Assembly (NCBI GenBank): GCA_029546925.1
Contig: JAKPQM010000023.1
Coordinates: 1 to 64,000, forward strand
Direction of reading: 5' to 3'
Origin: Actinomycetes bacterium
GTDB taxonomy: Bacteria > Actinomycetota > Coriobacteriia > Coriobacteriales > Atopobiaceae
Length of the DNA stretch: 64,000 nucleotides
Notes under the pieces: generated by a model
The model's input: only the letters and a program-made list of their open reading frames with translations
Databases searched by the model: none
What the model was told of the DNA's origin: nothing
Shown here: piece by piece, positions 15,199-26,778 of the stretch
Position numbering within the stretch: the stretch's first letter is position 1
How the letters are laid out: the number at the start of each line of letters is the position of its first letter
Program-made: the position numbers and the translations under genes

Positions 15199-16629
15199 AT
15201 GCAGAAGTGCCATCTCGCCATCGACATCGGCGCATCGAGCGGGCGGCACATCGTGGGGCGGGTCGTTGACGGGCGTATGGAGCTCACCGAGGTCTATCGC
15301 TTCGAGAATGGTCTCACGCGGCACGGCGGGCATCTTGTGTGGGACATCGACACGCTGGCCGAGAACGTCATCGCCGGCTTGGCCGCCGCGCACGAACAGG
15401 GATTCACGCCTGCCACCATCGGCATCGATACCTGGGCCGTGGACTACGTGCTGCTCGACGAGAACGACGAGCGCACCGGAGATTGCGTGGGCTATCGTGA
15501 TTCCCGCACCGACGGTATGCGCGACGCGCTGGAGCTCTCCGGCATCCTCTCCTTTGAGGAGCACTATGGGCGCACGGGCATCCAGTACCAGCAGTTCAAC
15601 ACAGCCTATCAGCTCTGCGCGCTCTCGCGTGACGATCGCGGGCAGCTCGAGGCTGCACGCAGCTTCCTCATGGTGCCCGACTATCTCAACTGGGTGCTCT
15701 GCGGTGTGAAGGCAAACGAATACACCAATGCATCGACGACCGCGCTTGTGAATGCCCTGACGGGCGATTGGGACGAAGAGCTCATCGCCCGCCTCAACCT
15801 GCCGCGCGGCATCTTCCAGGATATCCGCATGCCGGGAGCGGCACTCGGTCGCCTGCGGCCCGATATTGTCGACCGCGTTGGATTCAACGCCGAGGTCGTG
15901 CTCGTGGCAAGCCACGATACCGGCTCCGCTTGGCTTGCCGTGCCCGCACGCGACGAGAGGGCGGTGTACCTCTCGAGCGGCACATGGAGCCTCATGGGCG
16001 TCGAGCTGCACGAGCCGATCTGCACCATCCAGAGTGCCGGTCTGAATTTCACCAACGAGGGCGGATACGAGAAGCGCTTCCGCTATCTCAAGAACATCAT
16101 GGGCCTCTGGATGATCCAGAACGTGCGCAAGGAGCTCGGCGCTCAGAGCGGCGAGGCTCCCAGCTGGGGAGATCTTGTCGCTGCGGCGGAGGATGCGCGT
16201 GCGGCGGGCTTCTCCTGCGTGGTCGATGCCGACGATCCCGCATTTCTCGCTCCTGCGAGCATGCTTGCGGCGCTTCGCGAGGTGGCCGCCCAAGCCGGCC
16301 GGCAGGTTCCCCAGACGATGGGGGAGTACGCGCTTACCGTATACGACTCTCTCGCGGCCGATTACGCGCGTACGGTCGCCCAGCTGCGTGAGCAGACCGG
16401 CGTCGGCTACACGAGCATCAACATCGTGGGAGGCGGCTCGGCCAACGCCTATCTCAACCAGGCAACGGCCGACATCTGCGGGCTCACCGTTTTCGCCGGT
16501 CCCACCGAGGGCACGGCGCTGGGCAACCTCATGGTGCAGTTCATCTATTCGGGGAAGTACGCGAGCCTGGAGGATGCCCGCGCGGCTATTCGGGCGAGCT
16601 TCGATATCGAGGAATACCAGCCTAGGTAA
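15199..16629 (+). CDS. rhaB: Rhamnulokinase
   Basis: A 476-residue FGGY-family kinase that phosphorylates L-rhamnulose at O1. The N-terminal motif LAIDIGASSGRHIVG with GGHLVWDID is diagnostic of RhaB rather than xylulose or glycerol kinases. IGIDTWAVDYVLLD, GYRDSRTDG and YLSSGTWSLMGVE are further RhaB signatures, and NIVGGGSANAYLNQ is the C-terminal nucleotide-binding loop. Length agrees with E. coli RhaB (489). GAAAGGA lies upstream of the start. The aldolase gene follows 35 bp later, giving a rha operon. Confidence 0.96.
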   Translation: MQKCHLAIDIGASSGRHIVGRVVDGRMELTEVYRFENGLTRHGGHLVWDIDTLAENVIAGLAAAHEQGFTPATIGIDTWAVDYVLLDENDERTGDCVGYRDSRTDGMRDALELSGILSFEEHYGRTGIQYQQFNTAYQLCALSRDDRGQLEAARSFLMVPDYLNWVLCGVKANEYTNASTTALVNALTGDWDEELIARLNLPRGIFQDIRMPGAALGRLRPDIVDRVGFNAEVVLVASHDTGSAWLAVPARDERAVYLSSGTWSLMGVELHEPICTIQSAGLNFTNEGGYEKRFRYLKNIMGLWMIQNVRKELGAQSGEAPSWGDLVAAAEDARAAGFSCVVDADDPAFLAPASMLAALREVAAQAGRQVPQTMGEYALTVYDSLAADYARTVAQLREQTGVGYTSINIVGGGSANAYLNQATADICGLTVFAGPTEGTALGNLMVQFIYSGKYASLEDARAAIRASFDIEEYQPR

Positions 16630-16664
16630 AGCTGATGTCAGACAACGACGAAAGGGAGTTCATC

Positions 16665-17495
16665 ATGGCGATCGAGGATCTGGGATTTGTACAGGGTTTC
16701 TGCCGTCTGTGCACCGATGGCTGGCTGCAGGGTTGGCACGAGCGCAATGGAGGCAACCTCACCTACCGCATGACGGATGAGGAGGTCGAGGCGGCGCGGC
16801 CCTTCTTCGCTTCTGAGCCGCGGCCGTGGGTCGAGATGGGCGTCGCGGGCGAGAACCTGGCCGGCGCGTATTTCCTCTCCACCGGATCCGGCAAGTACAT
16901 GCGCAACGTGGCCGAGGATCCGGCCCACAACATCGGCATCGTCGAGATCAACGAGAGGGGCACCGCCTACCGTATCGTGTGGGGCCTGCTCGACGGCGCA
17001 AAGCCCACGAGCGAATTCCCCAGCCATTTCATGAACCACAGCGTCCGCGTGGCAGCTACGGACGGCGCTGATCGCGTCATCTACCACGCCCACACCCCCG
17101 GTATCATCGAGATGAGCTTCATCGTGCCCTTGACTCCCCGCGATTTCACGCGACGCCTGTGGCAGATGATGACCGAGTGCGTGGTCGTATTCCCTGCCGG
17201 AGTCGGTGTGGTTTCCTGGATGGTGCCGGGAGGACCGGCCATCGCCGAGGCGACGAGCAAGCTCATGGCCACCTACTCCACCGCTGTCTGGGCGCACCAT
17301 GGCCTCTTCGCGGCAGGTCCCGACTTCGACACCACCTTCGGTTTGGCGCATACGGTCGAGAAGGCCGCGCAGCTCTACGTTGCCGCCCGCGCAGCAAACG
17401 GCGGCTCCGAGGATTGGCTCAACAAGATCGAAGATGCCGGGCTCGTCCAAACCTGCAAGGACTTCGGTATCGTCATCAACCGGGATTTCATCTGA
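16665..17495 (+). CDS. rhaD: Rhamnulose-1-phosphate aldolase
   Basis: A 276-residue class II aldolase that splits L-rhamnulose 1-phosphate into DHAP and L-lactaldehyde. With the start at 16665 the numbering equals that of E. coli RhaD: E117 (SEFPSH), zinc ligands H141 and H143 (IYHAHTPG), E171 and H212 (AHHGLF). This supports the start; AAGGGAG precedes it, whereas the in-frame ATG at 16635 has no better site. It is 35 bp after rhaB. Confidence 0.95.
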   Translation: MAIEDLGFVQGFCRLCTDGWLQGWHERNGGNLTYRMTDEEVEAARPFFASEPRPWVEMGVAGENLAGAYFLSTGSGKYMRNVAEDPAHNIGIVEINERGTAYRIVWGLLDGAKPTSEFPSHFMNHSVRVAATDGADRVIYHAHTPGIIEMSFIVPLTPRDFTRRLWQMMTECVVVFPAGVGVVSWMVPGGPAIAEATSKLMATYSTAVWAHHGLFAAGPDFDTTFGLAHTVEKAAQLYVAARAANGGSEDWLNKIEDAGLVQTCKDFGIVINRDFI

Positions 17496-17663
17496 TTTCC
17501 CGGCCGGCTCGGCCAGAAGGGCTTATCTCGGCGGCAAATTTACGCACCAAGCGAGATGTGCAGCAGAAAAGCCCGGCTGGCGATCTGAGACGGATGCATC
17601 GTGCGTACATCGATCGGGGTGCGCCCAACACTGCGGATCCCGAACCAGAGAAAGGACACCACC

Positions 17664-19091
17664 ATGCTTGTAGAGACCAAGGCGAAGGCGGCCGTCTTCT
17701 CCGTCGCGCTTGGCGCGTACCTGCCGCAGTTCCCGCAGCTCGTTCCCGAGTTCGAGGCCCAGTATGAGGCTTTCAAGGCCGCTCTCCCCACTACGGTGGA
17801 CATCGTGGACGGCGGTATGGTGACCACCAAGGAGCAGGCGCAGGAGGCGGGCGATCTCTTCCGCGCGGCCGATGTGGATATCGTCTTCTTGCAGTTGCTC
17901 ACCTACGCCACGAGCTACAACATGCTGCCCGCCATCCGCGATCTCGATGTGCCGGTCGTCCTCGTCAACGTGCAGAAGAAGCGCCAACCCGACTATGCGA
18001 CGACCGACGTTCCCACGTGGCTGGGCGAGCTGTACGCCTGCGGTGCCGTGGGCGAGATGGTGGCCGATCTCGAGCGTGCCGGCAAGCGCCACGCCGTGAT
18101 CACCGGTGTCGTGGAAGGCGGCGATCCCGAGGTTGCAGCGGAGATCGAGGACTGGTGCCGCGCCGCCCAGGTGCGCCGGCGTCTCCGCCGTACCAATATC
18201 GCGCAGATCGGCCGCCCGTATCCCGGCATGATGGACCTCTACATCGACGAGACCAACCTCTATCACCGTATGGGCCTCTACACCAAGCAGTTCGACTGGG
18301 AGGATATGTGGGCGATTGCCGACACTATCACCGACCAGTCCGCCATCGACGCCAAAGCGGTCGAGATCTGCGAAACCTTCGACATGCTGGGCGGCGAGAC
18401 GCCTAAGAGCGAGGCCATCCAGCAGATGGCCAAGTACGTGCTCGCCTTCGAGCAGTGGGCCCGCGACGAGGAGGTGGGGCTCGTGGCCTCGCACTACGCC
18501 GGACATGCGCAGGGGCAGGCGGGCGTGCTCGACTCCATGCTCATCCCCGCCTTCTCCATGCTCATCAAGCAGGGCACCGCATGCGCCGTGGAAGGCGATA
18601 TGAAGGTCGCCATGGCCATGAGCATCTGCAAGACCATCGCGGGCACGGGCCAGCTCTCCGAGATGTACTCGATCGACTTCGACGAGGATCTCTGCATCAT
18701 CGGCCACAGCGGCTCGGGCGATGCGGATATCTCCCAAGCGCGCAAGCCCACGCTCAAGGTGGTCCCCGTGTTCCACGGAAAGACGGGCGGCGGCTATCTC
18801 ACGCAGTTCTATCCGCCGCTCGGCACCATCACCTACCTCGCCATCACCCAAGATGCCCAAGGCGCCTTCAAGTTCGTGGTGGCCGAGGGGGAGAACGTCG
18901 AGGGCCCGATCTTCGAGTTCGGCGACACCAACATGCGCATGCGCTTCTCCTGCGGCGCGCGCGCGTTCAACAACCGCTGGGCCGAGGCCGGCCCCACGCA
19001 CCACATGGCCGCAGCGGCGGGGAGCCACACGGATACCATCCTCAAGGTAGCGAAGATCCTCGACATTCCCGTTGAGATCATCACGCGGTAG
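17664..19091 (+). CDS. L-fucose/L-arabinose isomerase-family protein, probable rhamnose-pathway isomerase
   Basis: A 475-residue member of the FucI/AraA superfamily. Candidate Mn ligands are E310 (CAVEGDM), D340 or E341 (IDFDEDL), H348 (IIGHSG) and H446/H447 (GPTHHMA), placed much as E306, E333, H350 and H450 are in AraA. RhaA and RhaI families are not seen in the window, and this is the third gene of the rhaB-rhaD unit. It therefore probably converts L-rhamnose to L-rhamnulose. Fucose or arabinose as substrate cannot be excluded. The start at 17664 follows GAAAGGA; a longer frame from 17601 lacks a ribosome-binding site. Confidence 0.85.
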   Translation: MLVETKAKAAVFSVALGAYLPQFPQLVPEFEAQYEAFKAALPTTVDIVDGGMVTTKEQAQEAGDLFRAADVDIVFLQLLTYATSYNMLPAIRDLDVPVVLVNVQKKRQPDYATTDVPTWLGELYACGAVGEMVADLERAGKRHAVITGVVEGGDPEVAAEIEDWCRAAQVRRRLRRTNIAQIGRPYPGMMDLYIDETNLYHRMGLYTKQFDWEDMWAIADTITDQSAIDAKAVEICETFDMLGGETPKSEAIQQMAKYVLAFEQWARDEEVGLVASHYAGHAQGQAGVLDSMLIPAFSMLIKQGTACAVEGDMKVAMAMSICKTIAGTGQLSEMYSIDFDEDLCIIGHSGSGDADISQARKPTLKVVPVFHGKTGGGYLTQFYPPLGTITYLAITQDAQGAFKFVVAEGENVEGPIFEFGDTNMRMRFSCGARAFNNRWAEAGPTHHMAAAAGSHTDTILKVAKILDIPVEIITR

Positions 19092-19296: not shown

Positions 19297-21318
19297 CTAG
19301 GGTGTGAGCCAGCTTGGCTGCTCAGCCGAGATCACACGGGCGCAGGCATAGGCGCGCTCAAGGGATATCACTGCCGATACCTGGTAGGCGCCTGAGGGCA
19401 TCAGCTGGAGCACCGCTGCGCAGTCCGCGCGGCGGTCGTCAACAAGGTTGAGCGGGAGCAGGAGCTTGATGGCGCCATCTGCCGGATCGTAGACGGGGAC
19501 GGCGATGCGGTAGCTCGCGCGGGCCCGACGCAACGCCAGCTCGATAGCATCTTGGATGGCGCGTCCCATCCTGCGATAGAGACCCGGATCCGCCTTGATG
19601 GCCCTCGAAAGGATTTTAAGCTGGTCTTTCGTAAAAGATCCATCCTGAGCCTCTTCGATAAGGTCGGCAAGCAGCTCGCGCGTTCGGGTGTTGGCTTCGA
19701 GACTCTCGGCAACAAAGGCGCGCGGAAAACGTCCGAGCTGCGCTGAGAGCAGGGAAGCCGTGTCGATGACGAGCAAGCGCCCGGTTTCGGAGAGGACATC
19801 CTCGAGCCGCGTGAGGTAGCGTGCGGGCTCGGGCAAAGGATCGAAGGTTGCGGCGAGACGAAGGCCCAGCTCTCCCGATCCCGCGACGGCGAAGCCGAGC
19901 TGCCAGGAAATGGTTCCCGGACGCGGTGTGAGGACTGCATAGATGCTCTCGGAGAAGGGCGTCAGAAGACCCGTGTTAAACGCAGCAAGCGAATCATCGG
20001 CAGCCACGCAGAGCTTCTTCTCGCTTCTTATGCGGTGGAAGGTCACGGCCAGATATTCGCGCAGGATCCCATAGCGGCTTGCCTGGCCCACGCCTTCGCT
20101 GCGGAAGTTCCACCGCTCCGGGGCAGCCATCGTGGCAAGCGTTCCCAAGGCGGTGCCCCAAGTGCCGATCTGGGCGAATGCCGCCAGCTCGCGCACGGGA
20201 TTCGCAGTGTCGCTGCTTCTGCGGGAAGTTCCGGAAAGATCGCTCCAAGCACCCTCGTCTATCGAGGGGAGCCCCTCGATGCCCACGGCTTCGTGGGCTG
20301 CCCCGCTTCCGTCATTGCCGTCGATCGAGGCTATCGCCCAGCGCTTTCCGCCCGGGCTCTTGGCGGTACGCTTAATCGTGATCCCTACGAGCATCCCATC
20401 CTCGCGGAGGAGGCGCAGCGGGAAGCTCGCTTTGGCGCGAGTGCCGGAAACCATCCCGCATGAGCGCGCGTAGAGCCAATCCTCATCGAGTGTCGTGGAG
20501 GGGTTGGCATCGACGGGGAGGAGTTGGCAGAGGATGCGTAGCTGGTCATCGCGTATGAGAACCTCATCCGAGAAGCTCTGGGGCAGATCGCGCTTATCGG
20601 CGGGCACGGGCGCGGGCTGGAAAGCTGATAAGGGGGCGGGGAGCTCCTCTGCACAGGGGCCATCGTTTGCGGGTTCTTCCCCGATGCCTTCCTGCGGATC
20701 GTAGGCGATCGCGCGCGAGATGGGAGGTGCGGATGCGGAAGCGGGATCTTCAAGCGGCTCTACGGGGGGCTCGTCGAACATCTCCGGTGCAGGTGGCGCA
20801 TCTGCGAGGCGGCTATCGAGCTCTTCTGCGGAGTCCGCAGAGACCTTGTCGAGGTCTGCCTCCCGCAAGCCCTCTTCCTCTGACCGGCCAGCGGCGACCG
20901 TCTCCGTCTCGTTCTCCGGAAGGGGCTCCGGTTCGGGGACGGTCTCGATGACCCTCTTGCGTGGCTTCGCTGGCGTGGGATCTTTCGGACCCTTCTTGTG
21001 CTTCCATGATTTAGGTCCGGTTTTCGTGCTCTTCTCCGTTGGGGCAGAGCTTGCGAGCCGCTCGAGGATCCCATCGAATTCCTCGTTCTCGAGCAGGGTC
21101 GCGTAGACGCGGCCCTTCTTGAAGATCGTAAGCTTCACAAGCTCGGGCATGGCGGAAAGCAGGTCGAGCGTGCTGTCGAACCCGAGATCGCCCGGCTCGA
21201 CATCCTCTGCGGCGAGAACCTCCTCGACGCGCGGGACGAGAACCTGCCTACCGATACCGATTTCGCGGGAAAGAAGCTGGTAGAAGTATAGGCGGTTGCC
21301 GATAGTTACCTTGCCCAT
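19297..21318 (-). CDS. DUF3825 protein with N-terminal OST-HTH/LOTUS-like domain
   Basis: A 673-residue protein. Residues 1-~95 (MGKVTIGNRLYFYQLL, FDSTLDLLSAMPELVKL, FKKGRVYATLL) resemble the OST-HTH/LOTUS fold, which binds RNA in other proteins. Residues ~100-260 are a low-complexity, charged, Pro/Glu-rich linker. Residues ~270-500 match the DUF3825 pattern, including the FNTGL segment. The last ~170 residues are helical and unassigned. The start at 21318 has GAGGGGGA upstream. It is 22 bp after the isocitrate dehydrogenase gene on the same strand. The function is unknown; RNA binding is a guess from the first domain. Confidence 0.75.
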   Translation of the reverse strand: MGKVTIGNRLYFYQLLSREIGIGRQVLVPRVEEVLAAEDVEPGDLGFDSTLDLLSAMPELVKLTIFKKGRVYATLLENEEFDGILERLASSAPTEKSTKTGPKSWKHKKGPKDPTPAKPRKRVIETVPEPEPLPENETETVAAGRSEEEGLREADLDKVSADSAEELDSRLADAPPAPEMFDEPPVEPLEDPASASAPPISRAIAYDPQEGIGEEPANDGPCAEELPAPLSAFQPAPVPADKRDLPQSFSDEVLIRDDQLRILCQLLPVDANPSTTLDEDWLYARSCGMVSGTRAKASFPLRLLREDGMLVGITIKRTAKSPGGKRWAIASIDGNDGSGAAHEAVGIEGLPSIDEGAWSDLSGTSRRSSDTANPVRELAAFAQIGTWGTALGTLATMAAPERWNFRSEGVGQASRYGILREYLAVTFHRIRSEKKLCVAADDSLAAFNTGLLTPFSESIYAVLTPRPGTISWQLGFAVAGSGELGLRLAATFDPLPEPARYLTRLEDVLSETGRLLVIDTASLLSAQLGRFPRAFVAESLEANTRTRELLADLIEEAQDGSFTKDQLKILSRAIKADPGLYRRMGRAIQDAIELALRRARASYRIAVPVYDPADGAIKLLLPLNLVDDRRADCAAVLQLMPSGAYQVSAVISLERAYACARVISAEQPSWLTP

Positions 21319-21340
21319 CGAATCCCCCTCGCACTGCCGC

Positions 21341-22540
21341 TCATGACAGTCTGCCGGCAATCGCCTCGATGAACTCGCGGGTGCTCAAGCGCACGGGATT
21401 CTCGAGCGTGGTGATGGCGGCAAGATCGCCGGTCATCTCGCCCGCCTCGATGGTATCGATGGTGGCCTGCTCGAGCCTGTCCGCGAAGGCGGCCAAATCA
21501 TCGAGCCCGTCCAGCTCGCCGCGCTTCCGCAACGCTCCCGACCATGCGAAGATGGTGGCTACGGAGTTGGTGGAGGTCTCCTCGCCGGCGAGGTGCTTGT
21601 AGTAGTGGCGCTGCACGGTGCCGTGAGCCGCCTCGTACTCCCACGCGCCGTCGGGCGAGACGAGGACGCTCGTCATCATGGCGAGGCTGCCGAATGCGGT
21701 CGAGACCATATCGCTCATCACGTCGCCATCGTAGTTCTTGCAGGCCCAGACGAAGCCGCCCTCCGAGCGGATGACGCGTGCGACTATGTCATCGATGAGC
21801 GTGTAGAAATAGGAGATGCCCTCCTTCTCGAAGTGCTCCTTGTACTCGAGGTCGTAGATCTCCTGGAAGATGTCCTTGAAGCGGTGGTCGTAGGTCTTGG
21901 AGATGGTGTCCTTGGCACCGAACCAGAGGTCCTGCTCGGTGTCGAGGGCGAAGCTCATGCTCGCCCGTGCGAAGCTTGCGATAGAGCCGTCGAGGTTGTG
22001 GACGCCCTGCACGATGCCGGGATCCGCGAACTCGTGCACGAGCGAGCGGGTCTCGGTGCCGTCGCTTGCGGTGTGCACGAGCTCCACCTTGCCGGGGCGT
22101 TCCACCCGCAGCTCCGTGTTGCGGTATATATCACCATAGGCGTGGCGTGCGAGCGTGATAGGGCGCTTCCAGGTGCGTACGTAGGGCTCGATGCACTTGG
22201 TCATGATGGGGGCGCGGAATACGGTGCCGTCGAGCAGCGCACGGATGGTGCCGTTGGGGCTCTTCCACATCTGCTTCAGGCCGTATTCCTCGACACGCGC
22301 GGCGTTGGGGGTGATAGTGGCACACTTCACGGCCACGCCGAGGCGCTTGGTTGCCTGGGCCGACTCGACGGTCACAGCATCGTCGGTGGCATCGCGCATT
22401 TCAAGCCCAAGATCGTAGTACTCGGTCTTCAGATCGACAAAGGGGCAGATGAGCTGATCTTTGACCATCTGCCATATGACGCGGGTCATCTCATCGCCGT
22501 CCATCTCGACCAGCGGTGTTTCCATGCGGATCTTGTCCAT
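21341..22540 (-). CDS. icd: NADP-dependent isocitrate dehydrogenase
   Basis: A 399-residue enzyme of the type II (eukaryote-like) subfamily that oxidises isocitrate to 2-oxoglutarate and gives NADPH. Signatures are [30 protein letters not shown] (isocitrate phosphate site), [18 protein letters not shown] (metal Asp) and [11 protein letters not shown] (cofactor loop). The start at 22540 follows CGAGGAG; an upstream frame extends 11 codons without a better site. It is divergent from the large envelope protein, with 119 bp between starts. Confidence 0.95.
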
Positions 22541-22625: not shown

Positions 22626-22659
22626 TTTCAAGCTTTGTTAATGCTTACGAAGGAACGAG

Positions 22660-25600
22660 ATGACCGAGTCTATCACGCAGATCCTCTATCCGATCGTCGA
22701 ATGGTGCCACGCTCTCGTGGGCAATTGGTGGGTTGCCATCCTGCTCTTCACCGTCATCACGAAGGTGCTCCTGATGCCGCTCGCGCTCTGGAGCCATCGC
22801 AATTCCATCACGATGGTCGAGCTTATGCCCGACCTTTTCCATATCAAGACGCGATTTTTCGGCGATCGCGAAACCATCGAGGAGAAGCAGAATGAGCTGT
22901 ACAAGAGGCGCCACTACCACGTGCTGCTCTCGCTCGTGCCGCTCATCGCCCAGATCGTCATCCTCTTCGGGCTCTCCGGTGTCATCCGCACCATTGCGCA
23001 GAGCGGAGATGCCGAGGTGGTGCTTTTAGGCACCGTGCCTTCCGAGGCGGGATTCCCGCTCCTCGCTGTCGTCCCGTTGCTGGCGGCGCTCTCATCGCTT
23101 GTGCAGGGTCTGGCTGCCAACCGCATCAATCCCCTGCAGCGCGAACAATCGCGTGCCGAGAAGGCCACGACCAATGGCATCTCCATCGCGCTCTCCCTCT
23201 TTCTTGCCGCCTTCGTGGTGTGCGGCATGGCATTCTACTGGATCTGCTCGAATCTCCTGGCCATCGCGGTGCAGCTTGCCTGCAATGGCATCATCAGGCC
23301 CGCGAACTACATCGATTACGAGGAGCTCGCTGCTGCCCGTAAAGAGTACGAGGCGCTCGAGGCATCCACCGCGTCGCGGCGCGCATGGTACGAGCGCGAC
23401 CCCTATGTGCGCAAGGAGCGTGCAGATTACCAGCGTTTCTTCTCCATCGAGGGCAAGCATCTCGTGTTCTACTCGGAGGGGAGTGGATTCTACAAATACT
23501 TCAAGGGCGCCATCGAATGGTTGCTCCTCCATTCCGACATCCAGATCCACTACGTCACGAGCGACCCTGAAGATCAGGTTTTCGCCATCGCCGAGCAGGA
23601 GCCGAGGCTGCTTCCGTACTACGTCGGGCAGCGTCGCCTCATCACCCTCATGATGAAGATGGATGCCGACGTCGTGGCCATGAGCATACCCGCACTCGAT
23701 AACTACTACCTCAAGCGCTCGTATGTGCGTGATGATATCACCTACGTCTACATACCCCACCATACGACGAGCTACCACCTTACGAGCCTCAAACACGACT
23801 ACGACCACTTCGACGAGGTATTCTGCGTGGGTCCGCATCAGGTTGTCGAGCTGCGCAGATTGGAAGAGATGAACGGTGCGCCCGCCAAGGAGCTGCCGCT
23901 TATCGGGTACGACCTGATCGACGAGGAGATCCGCGCATACGAATCGGTTGCGCACGAGGATGCGCATACGCCCCCCGTGGTGCTCGTGGCGCCTTCGTGG
24001 AACCAGGATAACATCCTCGACTCCTGCATCGATGAGATGCTGGACGTGCTGCTCGCACGCGGCTACCGTGTCATCGTGCGTCCCCACCCCGAATACACCA
24101 AACGCTACCGATCCAAGTGGGAGGCCCTGATCGGACGCTACGCGCATATCCCGGAGGAGCGCCTCTTCTTCGAGAGGGATTTCTCGTCCAACGAGAGCAT
24201 CCTCGATGCCGACACCATCATCACCGACTGGTCGACCATCAATCTCGAATTCTCGTTCACCACGCTCAAACCCTCGATCTTCATCGACACGACCATGAAG
24301 GTCAACAATCCCGATTGGGAGAAGCTGGGCATCGTCCCGACCGATATCAGCATCCGCAACGAGATCGGACGTTCGCTGGCACCCGAAGCCCTTTCCGGGC
24401 TACCCGACCTCATCGATGATCTGCTCGCCCATGCATCGCAGTGGAAGGATGACATCAGCTCGGTGCGCTCGCGTATGATATCGAATCTGGGCCATGGTGG
24501 CGAGCGGGCTGGCGAGCGGCTTTTGGAACTCGTCCTCGAGCATCAGGGTAGCGGCGGGCAAGGGCATGCCCTCGAGGAGCAGCCTGCCGAAGGCACATCC
24601 GGACCCGAGGCCAAACATTTCGGCGGCAAGCGCATCTCGTCGGTCGATGTGGCCTGCGCCCTGCTCGGCGTCGCCGCCGGCTTGGCACTCGTACCTCGGC
24701 CTGCGCTCGCCTACGTGGATCCCTCGGTCATGACCTACACCATCCAAGCGCTCGCGGCAGTTGCCGTGGCGCTTTCGGCAGTTATCGGCGTGGCATTCCG
24801 CAAGACTCGTTCCGTGATCTTCAAGCTGTTCCATGTCGATGAGAAGATGAGGCTGCTCATCGAGCCTCCCGTCCACCGCATCTCGCCCGAGCAGAAGGCC
24901 GAGACCGACGAGGCCGTGCAGCGGGAGCGCGAAGCTAGCGCTGCGGCCTACAGGAAGCGCCAGGTGAGCATCTCCTGGCCCGCCCGTCTCGCTCTGTCCC
25001 TGCTCGCGGTGGGGCTTCCCATCTTCACGGTCTTCGTGGTCGCGCCCATCGAGCTTGTGGCAAACAACGCGTCGAGCCTGGTGTTCGGTGTCGACATGAT
25101 AGGGGCCCCGATCGTGCGCGTCGGCGTCATAGCCATCGCTGTCGGTGCATTCGTGCTCTCGCTCGTCCGCGGAAAGCCGTTCCATATCCTGCTTGCCGCG
25201 ATCACCGCTCTCGGCCTGGCGGCATATCTCGAGTCGCTCTTCTTCGGGCATTACCTGCCGCTTGCGGACGGTGCGCCCGTCAATTGGGACAACTATACCC
25301 GCATCACCGTGCTGAGCCTTGCGCTGTGGATCGCAGCTCTTGTGGGCATGGTTGGGCTCGCCGCCAAGAAGCCGCAGCTCTCGCGTTCGATCGGCGCTGC
25401 TCTCGCGCTCGTGCTCATCATTATCCAGCTGGTGGGCGTGGCAAGCCTCTCAACGGTGAGCGGGGCGGGGACCGATGTCTTGCGGGAGGATGACGGGAAC
25501 GCCATCTCGCCCGAGAACTACGTGAACGCCACGACCGAGCTCGGCCTCTTCGACGTCTCGGAACAGGATAACGTCGTCATCTTCGTGCTCGATATGACCG

Positions 25601-26778
25601 ACTCGTCCTATGTCCGCGAGCTGCTGGACGGTTATTACCCCGAGATCCTCGATGGCCTCGAGGGATTCACCTTTTACGAGAACTCCGGTGGCGGCATGAT
25701 CCCTACAGGCTACGGCGTCCCGCTGCTGCTCACCGGTTCGACTCCTCAGCCGGGTCAGATGATGTTCGATTATATCGATAGCCGCTACCCCGACTCGCGC
25801 TTTTTGCCCGACATCGCCGAACTCGGCTATTCCATCGGAATCTATTCCGACTCGATCGCGATGAGTGATGCCGAAGCCTATCTTCCCGCGTCCTATACCA
25901 TCAACAACCGCGATGAGCGCGATGTCGTCGAGGTCATCACGGCAAGCTTCGACGAGCAGGGCGCACGGGATATCCTCTATCGCTGCGCGCTCTATCGCCA
26001 CGTGCCGTGGCTTTTCAAGCCCCCCTTCCGGTACTACACCGATGATATCAACCAGGGCTGCGTCAACGCCCGCTCCGAGCGCGCGAACGGAGACGAGCGG
26101 ATTTACCAGACCGATGACGTGAGGTACTATCAGCAGCTCATGGACCAAGGGCTCGCGTTCAACAGCGAGGAGAAAAGCTTCCGTTTCGTCCACCTCAACG
26201 GCACGCACTGGCCCTATATGATGACGCGCGATATCGAGCGGCAGGAGTCGTCCACCCTCGAGCAGTGCATCGGGGCGTTCAATATCGTCAAAGCGTATCT
26301 GGATGAGCTCAGGCGTCTTGGCGTCTACGATCAGACCACGGTCATCATCACGGCAGACCATGGTGTCTGGTATCCCATCGATAGCACCGAGGTCGAGCCG
26401 ATCGACAGAGCCACTTCGCCTATCATCTTCGTGAAGCCAGCCCAGACGGCTGAGGAAGCGTCGCAGCCCTGCCAGATCTCCCAAGCGCCCGTGACCATCA
26501 TCGATCTCATGCCCACGATACTGGAGGCCATGGGAGCAGACGAGGAGACGATCGCCTTGTATGAGGGCCGTCCCATCGATGAGATCGGAGAGGATGAGGA
26601 GCGCCTGCGCTACTTCTACATGCCCGATCGCGATATCTTGGAAGACGGCTCGATCGGCGACTATATGGGTCTTTGGGAATACATCATCGATGGGGACGTG
26701 AGCGACTTCGATAACTGGGAGTTCACCGGCAATGTCAATCCACGCAACGATACCTACTATGTGGAGCACCCGTACTAG
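22660..26778 (+). CDS. Three-module envelope protein: YidC-like + TagB/F glycerophosphotransferase + LtaS-like sulfatase
   Basis: A 1372-residue single frame. Module 1 (residues ~1-225) is a YidC/Oxa1-type membrane region (NWWVAILLFTVITKVLLMPL, then ELYKRRHYHVLLSLVPLIAQ). Module 2 (~250-600) is a CDP-glycerol glycerophosphotransferase, with H476 in VRPHPEY and the D523-W-S-T motif in IITDWSTINLEFS. Module 3 has about seven membrane helices (~660-945) and then an alkaline-phosphatase-superfamily domain (~965-1370). Its metal/nucleophile candidates are D978 and T980 (LDMTDSSY), H1183 (NGTHWPY) and D1233-H1234 (TADHGVW). The layout suggests assembly of a glycerol-phosphate polymer such as a teichoic or lipoteichoic acid at the membrane. 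AAGGAACGAG precedes the start. Confidence 0.88.
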   Translation: MTESITQILYPIVEWCHALVGNWWVAILLFTVITKVLLMPLALWSHRNSITMVELMPDLFHIKTRFFGDRETIEEKQNELYKRRHYHVLLSLVPLIAQIVILFGLSGVIRTIAQSGDAEVVLLGTVPSEAGFPLLAVVPLLAALSSLVQGLAANRINPLQREQSRAEKATTNGISIALSLFLAAFVVCGMAFYWICSNLLAIAVQLACNGIIRPANYIDYEELAAARKEYEALEASTASRRAWYERDPYVRKERADYQRFFSIEGKHLVFYSEGSGFYKYFKGAIEWLLLHSDIQIHYVTSDPEDQVFAIAEQEPRLLPYYVGQRRLITLMMKMDADVVAMSIPALDNYYLKRSYVRDDITYVYIPHHTTSYHLTSLKHDYDHFDEVFCVGPHQVVELRRLEEMNGAPAKELPLIGYDLIDEEIRAYESVAHEDAHTPPVVLVAPSWNQDNILDSCIDEMLDVLLARGYRVIVRPHPEYTKRYRSKWEALIGRYAHIPEERLFFERDFSSNESILDADTIITDWSTINLEFSFTTLKPSIFIDTTMKVNNPDWEKLGIVPTDISIRNEIGRSLAPEALSGLPDLIDDLLAHASQWKDDISSVRSRMISNLGHGGERAGERLLELVLEHQGSGGQGHALEEQPAEGTSGPEAKHFGGKRISSVDVACALLGVAAGLALVPRPALAYVDPSVMTYTIQALAAVAVALSAVIGVAFRKTRSVIFKLFHVDEKMRLLIEPPVHRISPEQKAETDEAVQREREASAAAYRKRQVSISWPARLALSLLAVGLPIFTVFVVAPIELVANNASSLVFGVDMIGAPIVRVGVIAIAVGAFVLSLVRGKPFHILLAAITALGLAAYLESLFFGHYLPLADGAPVNWDNYTRITVLSLALWIAALVGMVGLAAKKPQLSRSIGAALALVLIIIQLVGVASLSTVSGAGTDVLREDDGNAISPENYVNATTELGLFDVSEQDNVVIFVLDMTDSSYVRELLDGYYPEILDGLEGFTFYENSGGGMIPTGYGVPLLLTGSTPQPGQMMFDYIDSRYPDSRFLPDIAELGYSIGIYSDSIAMSDAEAYLPASYTINNRDERDVVEVITASFDEQGARDILYRCALYRHVPWLFKPPFRYYTDDINQGCVNARSERANGDERIYQTDDVRYYQQLMDQGLAFNSEEKSFRFVHLNGTHWPYMMTRDIERQESSTLEQCIGAFNIVKAYLDELRRLGVYDQTTVIITADHGVWYPIDSTEVEPIDRATSPIIFVKPAQTAEEASQPCQISQAPVTIIDLMPTILEAMGADEETIALYEGRPIDEIGEDEERLRYFYMPDRDILEDGSIGDYMGLWEYIIDGDVSDFDNWEFTGNVNPRNDTYYVEHPY

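Follow-up and report, generated by a model that had tools for sequence, protein, structure and literature searches.

Why should a membrane domain of the YidC/Oxa1 insertase type be built into the same polypeptide as two enzyme modules resembling those of teichoic and lipoteichoic acid synthesis? This question is raised by a 1372-residue protein encoded as a single open reading frame (ORF) in the window analysed here, a stretch of 64,000 nucleotides (positions 1 to 64,000 of contig JAKPQM010000023.1, assembly GCA_029546925.1) from an Actinomycetes bacterium of the family Atopobiaceae. A first-pass annotation of the sequence had described the protein as a fusion of YidC-like, TagB/F-like and LtaS-like modules. 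The current analysis establishes that this fusion is real and intact, while also revealing it to be an exception, a lineage-specific form of a system that more generally has its modules split between genes. The recurrence of these modules, split or fused, across three bacterial groups suggests an undescribed device, made in one piece, for furnishing the cell surface with phosphate-linked head groups, which we tentatively read as a one-chain, two-sided machine for the transfer of phospho-head groups.

Results

Integrity and module composition of the fused protein

Three further members of the genus, each assembled independently, also encode the full-length fusion in intact form (G003, loci L034/L005; G002, loci L035/L006; and G004, loci L008/L036, the copy of which ends at a contig border), and because of this it is not an assembly join; a frameshift is likewise ruled out, and the single uninterrupted frame described in the first-pass annotation is upheld. 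Comparison with L034 indicates purifying selection, the rate of non-synonymous substitution (dN) being far below the synonymous rate (dS) throughout (dN 0.082 and dS 0.43 for the whole chain, 0.049 and 0.30 for the YidC part), with the YidC and TagF-like parts being the most conserved and a linker near residues 627–662 the least. AlphaFold modelled the chain with a mean predicted local distance difference test score (pLDDT) of 93 for residues 1–640 and 87 for residues 655–1372. A simple hydropathy scan divided the protein into five helices (the YidC domain), a long soluble stretch, two helices, five further helices and a soluble end, with lysine and arginine mostly located on the presumed cytosolic side of the helices; assuming the usual orientation of YidC, the TagF-like domain would lie inside the cell and the LtaS-like domain outside.

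The proposed module identities were borne out by both profile and fold. The N-terminal region models as a YidC fold, matching PF02096 above the cut-off (residues 23–209, E 3.7e-27) and resembling E. coli YidC in both sequence (E 1.6e-10) and structure (6al2, Foldseek probability 1.00), which rules out a spurious call. The YidC domains of the YidC–phosphotransferase unit (here termed A-type, as opposed to paralogous B-type domains) form one clade across the three bacterial groups, apart from housekeeping YidC (support 99/98). The position of the positively charged residue in the hydrophilic groove is occupied by lysine in 82 of 83 A-type domains (K35 in this protein), by arginine in all ten ordinary YidCs compared, which were taken from the same order, and by asparagine in all seven B-type domains. 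Residues T31, Q98, Q160, Y193, W194 and N198 are unchanging in the YidC part of relatives, while N154, Q160, S179 and N198 represent invariant polar residues that are the A-type clade's own. The search for a separate yidC gene identified an ordinary copy on contig C7 of the same genome (260 residues, E 1e-51); the fused domain is thus ruled out as the cell's only insertase and is therefore free for a special role.

The middle domain scored below the cut-off of PF04464 when this family was used alone (E 8e-4, 18.8 bits against a gathering score of 22.1); against solved structures, a profile of its relatives retrieved the capsule polymerase Cps3D, which is TagF-like (E 1.2e-7), and TarL (E 0.0045), and Foldseek returned GT-B enzymes, including a capsule multienzyme with bound CMP. 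No LicD domain (PF04991) was among the Pfam scan matches of the 1372-residue protein. The C-terminal module matched the sulfatase family PF00884 (residues 1151–1293, E 1e-8), a profile of residues ~775–1360 found Staphylococcus aureus LtaS (2w5q, E 7e-12), and Foldseek identified PbgA/LtaS-type and sulfatase folds.

The residues that the first-pass annotation had singled out as catalytic are, with one exception, invariant among relatives: this applies to H476, to D523, W524 and S525 (its DWST motif), and to D978, H1183, D1233 and H1234. The exception is T980, which varies among relatives and is hence ruled out as the nucleophile, the corresponding LtaS position being that of T1016. Two features had been overlooked, these being a second invariant histidine in the middle domain, H367, and a fourth piece, a two-helix segment between the TagF-like and LtaS-like parts, for which no Pfam family was found above cut-off. 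The same type of segment was observed as a stand-alone small membrane protein ('AYVDPSVMTYxIQAxAGV...') adjoining the system, for example at L075:10125-10406 and similar positions, again with no Pfam family above cut-off.

Split and fused forms of the system

A module scan of 117 loci identified the YidC domain plus the TagF-like domain, together of ~630–700 residues, as the stable unit, and located it in Coriobacteriia, in Clostridia/Erysipelotrichia and in metagenome-assembled genomes (MAGs) labelled Saccharibacteria. The gene that follows it in most Coriobacteriia encodes the short segment together with the LtaS-like part and frequently occurs as two or three copies, and the gene order in Lachnospiraceae, Oscillospiraceae and the Saccharibacteria-labelled MAGs is LtaS-like gene, YidC–TagF-like gene and a separate gene of 68–99 residues for the segment. 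Both split and fused versions consequently exist and the former is the commoner: among 60 loci with flanks, the full fusion accounts for three, while an LtaS-like gene is adjacent on the same strand in 38 and the small gene is adjacent in 29. The YidC tree implies no fewer than three independent origins of the full fusion, one in the window's genus, one in that of G018 and one, with a different joint, in the Lachnospiraceae MAG L088. Within the window's own family the unit is present in 34 of 140 genomes (hereafter carriers, the other 106 being non-carriers), six of these being fully fused; it does not occur widely in Actinomycetota, as only two of 198 sampled genomes of the phylum possess it, both belonging to this family.

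In a dozen of the Saccharibacteria-labelled MAGs (L082, L087, L094, L099, L102-L106, L108, L110 and L112) the system was observed along with teichoic-acid-type ATP-binding cassette (ABC) exporters and LicC-like genes, an unexpected complement for small-genome epibionts.

The activated donor

TagD (TIGR01518), which would signal CDP-glycerol as the donor, had no match in the window's own genome (G000) and exceeded the curated cut-off in a single carrier, or in five if weaker fused forms are counted. In contrast, LicC fused to a choline-kinase-like domain (LicC-LicA) is encoded by 29 of the 34 carriers versus 29 of the 106 non-carriers, and the own genome possesses LicA/LicC-type genes at C58:10250 and C31:60567. 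With 33 carriers lacking an above-cut-off TagD and 32 possessing a LicC-type gene, the glycerol-phosphate reading is weakened: in view of the TagD survey CDP-glycerol is an unlikely donor, and a different compound probably takes this role.

Linkage is apparent at the level of gene order, as LicC-LicA lies within 1–6 kb of the unit in ten genomes representing seven genera. In Atopobium minutum the order is LicC-LicA, an EamA permease (LicB-like by family), the YidC–TagF-like gene and two LtaS-like genes; LicD was not found in the genome of this species (G251, a 100% match to the L044 protein), nor in three other carriers, which makes the unit a candidate consumer of CDP-choline.

Genes for phosphonate synthesis, i.e. 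phosphoenolpyruvate (PEP) mutase, phosphonopyruvate decarboxylase and aminoethylphosphonate (AEP) transaminase, are located beside the unit in several Clostridia (Lachnospiraceae, Oscillospiraceae). Complete or near-complete sets were noted directly beside it at L070, L081, L067, L092 and L097, the PEP mutase bearing a cytidylyltransferase-like domain. A phosphonate as general donor is nevertheless ruled out for the own genome, as PEP mutase is present in four of the 34 carriers and not in G000. The LicC-like enzyme PntC has been reported to make CMP-AEP in a relative of Atopobium and in Treponema, where the transferase was not identified; LicD-like phosphotransferases are named in that report, and YidC and glycerophosphotransferase are absent from its text (PMC6697681).

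A paralogous locus elsewhere in the genome

Contig C31 of the own genome (L114:9766-15868) encodes, in this order, a YidC–LtaS-like fusion of 1002 residues with asparagine rather than arginine or lysine as the groove residue, a TagF-like protein, and a LicC-like protein fused to a CobD/HisC-like domain, with LicC-LicA situated ~3 kb beyond this trio. The TagF-like paralogue passes PF04464 (33.3 bits) and starts with a related-looking 'YIDPGTGS' (DP-motif) helix segment. The order in which modules of these kinds are joined is therefore different here, and in G002 the main-type and second-type loci lie side by side.

Fusion of a LicC-like cytidylyltransferase to a threonine-phosphate-decarboxylase-like, pyridoxal phosphate-dependent enzyme was noted at L085:2131-3942 and L114:14051-15868; such an enzyme might convert an amino-acid phosphate directly into CDP-ethanolamine or CDP-aminopropanol.

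Features and neighbouring genes

The features of the fused protein are compiled in Table 1. Elsewhere in the window, FGGY kinase, class II aldolase and arabinose/fucose-isomerase-like genes stand in a row at 15199-19088, constituting a rhamnose- or fucose-type sugar operon, while a 687-residue DUF3825 protein encoded at 19300-21360 adjoins icd on the minus strand. In Tractidigestivibacter loci, too, icd has a relative of this protein as its neighbour, close to the system.

Table 1. Coordinates of the fused protein and its features within the window (residue numbers refer to the 1372-residue chain).
Feature	Position	Strand	Basis
YidC–phosphotransferase–two-helix segment–LtaS-like fusion, single ORF, 1372 residues	22660..26778	+	no internal stops
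AAGGA, likely ribosome-binding site	22650..22654	+	direct sequence; 5 nt ahead of ATG
YidC/Oxa1-type five-helix domain, residues 1-226	22660..23337	+	PF02096, 6al2 fold, pLDDT mostly >90, five hydrophobic segments
K35, equivalent of groove arginine (E. coli R366 by alignment)	22762..22764	+	A-type alignment
GT-B phosphotransferase domain, TagF/Cps3D type, residues 244-630, predicted cytosolic	23389..24549	+	profile + fold
H367, invariant, candidate general base	23758..23760	+	56/56 relatives
H476 of RPHP motif, invariant	24085..24087	+	56/56 relatives
D523-W524-S525, invariant	24226..24234	+	56/56 relatives
Two-helix 'YVDPSVMTY' segment, residues ~659-730	24634..24849	+	separate 68-99 residue gene in Clostridia and Saccharibacteria
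Five-helix membrane part of LtaS-like module, residues 775-930	24982..25449	+	hydropathy + model
Extracytoplasmic LtaS/sulfatase-superfamily catalytic domain, residues 960-1360	25537..26739	+	PF00884, LtaS 2w5q, fold
D978, invariant metal-ligand-type residue (putative LtaS E255 position)	25591..25593	+	57/57 relatives
T1016, catalytic-type threonine (putative LtaS T300 position)	25705..25707	+	T 54/57, S 3/57
H1183, invariant	26206..26208	+	57 relatives
D1233-H1234, invariant (LtaS D475-H476)	26356..26361	+	57 relatives

Discussion

In the two-sided transfer proposed here, the LicC-type cytidylyltransferases that are encoded in these genomes would make CDP-choline, CDP-ethanolamine or a similar compound, or CMP-AEP in the case of Clostridia. 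The cytosolic TagF-like domain, employing H367, H476 and D523, would load the head-group phosphate of this donor onto a lipid acceptor in the inner leaflet, and the YidC fold, with its conserved polar and positive groove, would let the lipid head group cross the membrane. Finally, T1016 of the LtaS-like domain would receive the head group and hand it on to a glycan or polymer at the cell surface, so that the lipid becomes available again. The predicted topology, with the phosphotransferase inside and the LtaS-like domain outside, fits this scheme. The class of activated donor and the two-sided layout draw on the observations described above; a lipid as acceptor, its flipping across the membrane and the acceptor outside are elements that we infer. 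It appears somewhat doubtful that a YidC-type fold has gone as far as being recruited as a dedicated flippase for lipids with a single phospho- or phosphono-head group, with one polypeptide loading, flipping and transferring outside; were this true, it would constitute a surface-decoration machine without known counterpart.

Co-occurrence speaks for the two-sided transfer, as either LicC type (including the fusion of LicC to a CobD-like aminotransferase domain) is encoded by 32 of 34 carriers versus 30 of 106 non-carriers (Fisher p 3e-12). A number of observations weigh against it. The counts behind this association are not corrected for relatedness, and two carriers have neither type, although both of their genomes are incomplete. 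LicD is present in most carriers and LicC-LicA can also serve LicD. The locus in the window is flanked by icd and a purF-like gene, with no LicC-type or phosphonate neighbours, and a TagGH-like ABC exporter is found near the Saccharibacteria loci, so export could be a separate process. In addition, the segment near residues 660–735 is poorly modelled, with low AlphaFold confidence.

The proposal that the YidC fold acts as a platform or lipid-handling unit in polymer assembly fares well as regards the domain itself, with the fold, the conserved groove residues and the recurrent linkage to its partners all supporting it, and less well as regards the glycerol-phosphate polymer. If the YidC domain were a docking platform for a lipid-linked substrate rather than a flippase, the TagF-like domain could work in the manner of LicD or TagF, decorating or lengthening a lipid-attached glycan on the cytosolic side, and the LtaS-like domain could, independently of this, add a head group taken from a lipid on the outside. 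Relatives such as TagF, Cps3D and TarL do act on polymer acceptors, and TagGH-type ABC exporters occur near Saccharibacteria and Clostridia loci; we nonetheless consider this explanation unlikely, since it accounts neither for the conserved groove residues T31, K35, Q98, Y193 and W194 nor for the tight linkage of the phosphotransferase and LtaS-like parts.

A role for the YidC domain as a dedicated insertase or chaperone, assembling the LtaS-like protein and the small membrane segment, seems decidedly unlikely to us. It would agree with the true YidC fold, the conserved groove and partners that are membrane proteins encoded next door; however, the genome has an ordinary yidC, the A-type clade has its own invariant polar residues, and the widespread form joins YidC to the cytosolic phosphotransferase and not to the LtaS-like protein. 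Most improbable of all appears to be the glycerol-phosphate (lipo)teichoic acid synthase implied by the first-pass annotation, drawing on CDP-glycerol inside and phosphatidylglycerol outside. The closest named families, TagF/Cps3D and LtaS, would speak for it, and the missing TagD of the own genome and the one full-score TagD among the carriers (five with the weaker fused forms), compared to 32 LicC-type genomes, speak against it.

With a YidC fold forming part of a phosphotransfer enzyme that three bacterial groups have retained, purposeful lipid scrambling becomes directly testable; to our knowledge, there is no known cellular process that uses YidC-type lipid scrambling on purpose. The two-sided transfer machine is furthermore a candidate for the missing step by which gut and oral Coriobacteriia and Clostridia bring CDP- or CMP-activated choline or AEP to their surface.

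Although each part derives from a known superfamily, the YidC–phosphotransferase protein and its trio are apparently undescribed, as no description of a YidC fusion with a glycerophosphotransferase, LtaS, LicD or a phosphocholine link was found in the full-text literature, in a search that subscription journals mostly lay outside. The N-terminal domain shares the fold, groove, T31, Q98 and Y/W pair of the YidC/Oxa1/SpoIIIJ insertases, among which YidC of E. coli has lipid-scrambling activity in vitro (PMC10491306), yet it belongs to a separate clade with lysine for the invariant arginine and polar residues of its own, and is fused to an enzyme. With the TagF/TarL/Cps3D family (CDP-glycerol or CDP-ribitol phosphotransferases, PF04464) the middle domain has in common the GT-B fold, the RPHP and D[WY]S motifs and the invariant second histidine, differing in its YidC fusion, its sub-cut-off Pfam score and a context that points to another CDP- or CMP-activated donor. 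The LtaS/alkaline-phosphatase superfamily (LtaS, PbgA/YejM, EptA-like) displays the same five helices and outside domain with the D, T, H and DH residues, whereas the present module is very distant from LtaS, is partnered with the YidC–phosphotransferase and, in Coriobacteriia, has an extra two-helix segment. The LicABCD phosphocholine pathway and Pnt phosphonate tailoring (PMC6697681) employ the same CDP/CMP activation by LicC or PntC, the genes of which are linked to the unit, but transfer in the scheme proposed here would be performed by the TagF-like and LtaS-like pair in place of LicD. The overall logic also recalls three-part surface glycosylation of the GtrA/GtrB/Gtr type, in which loading of a lipid inside is followed by flipping and by transfer outside; the resemblance is one of logic, as the two have no families in common and the present system would handle phosphate head groups and, in some species, do so with a single chain.

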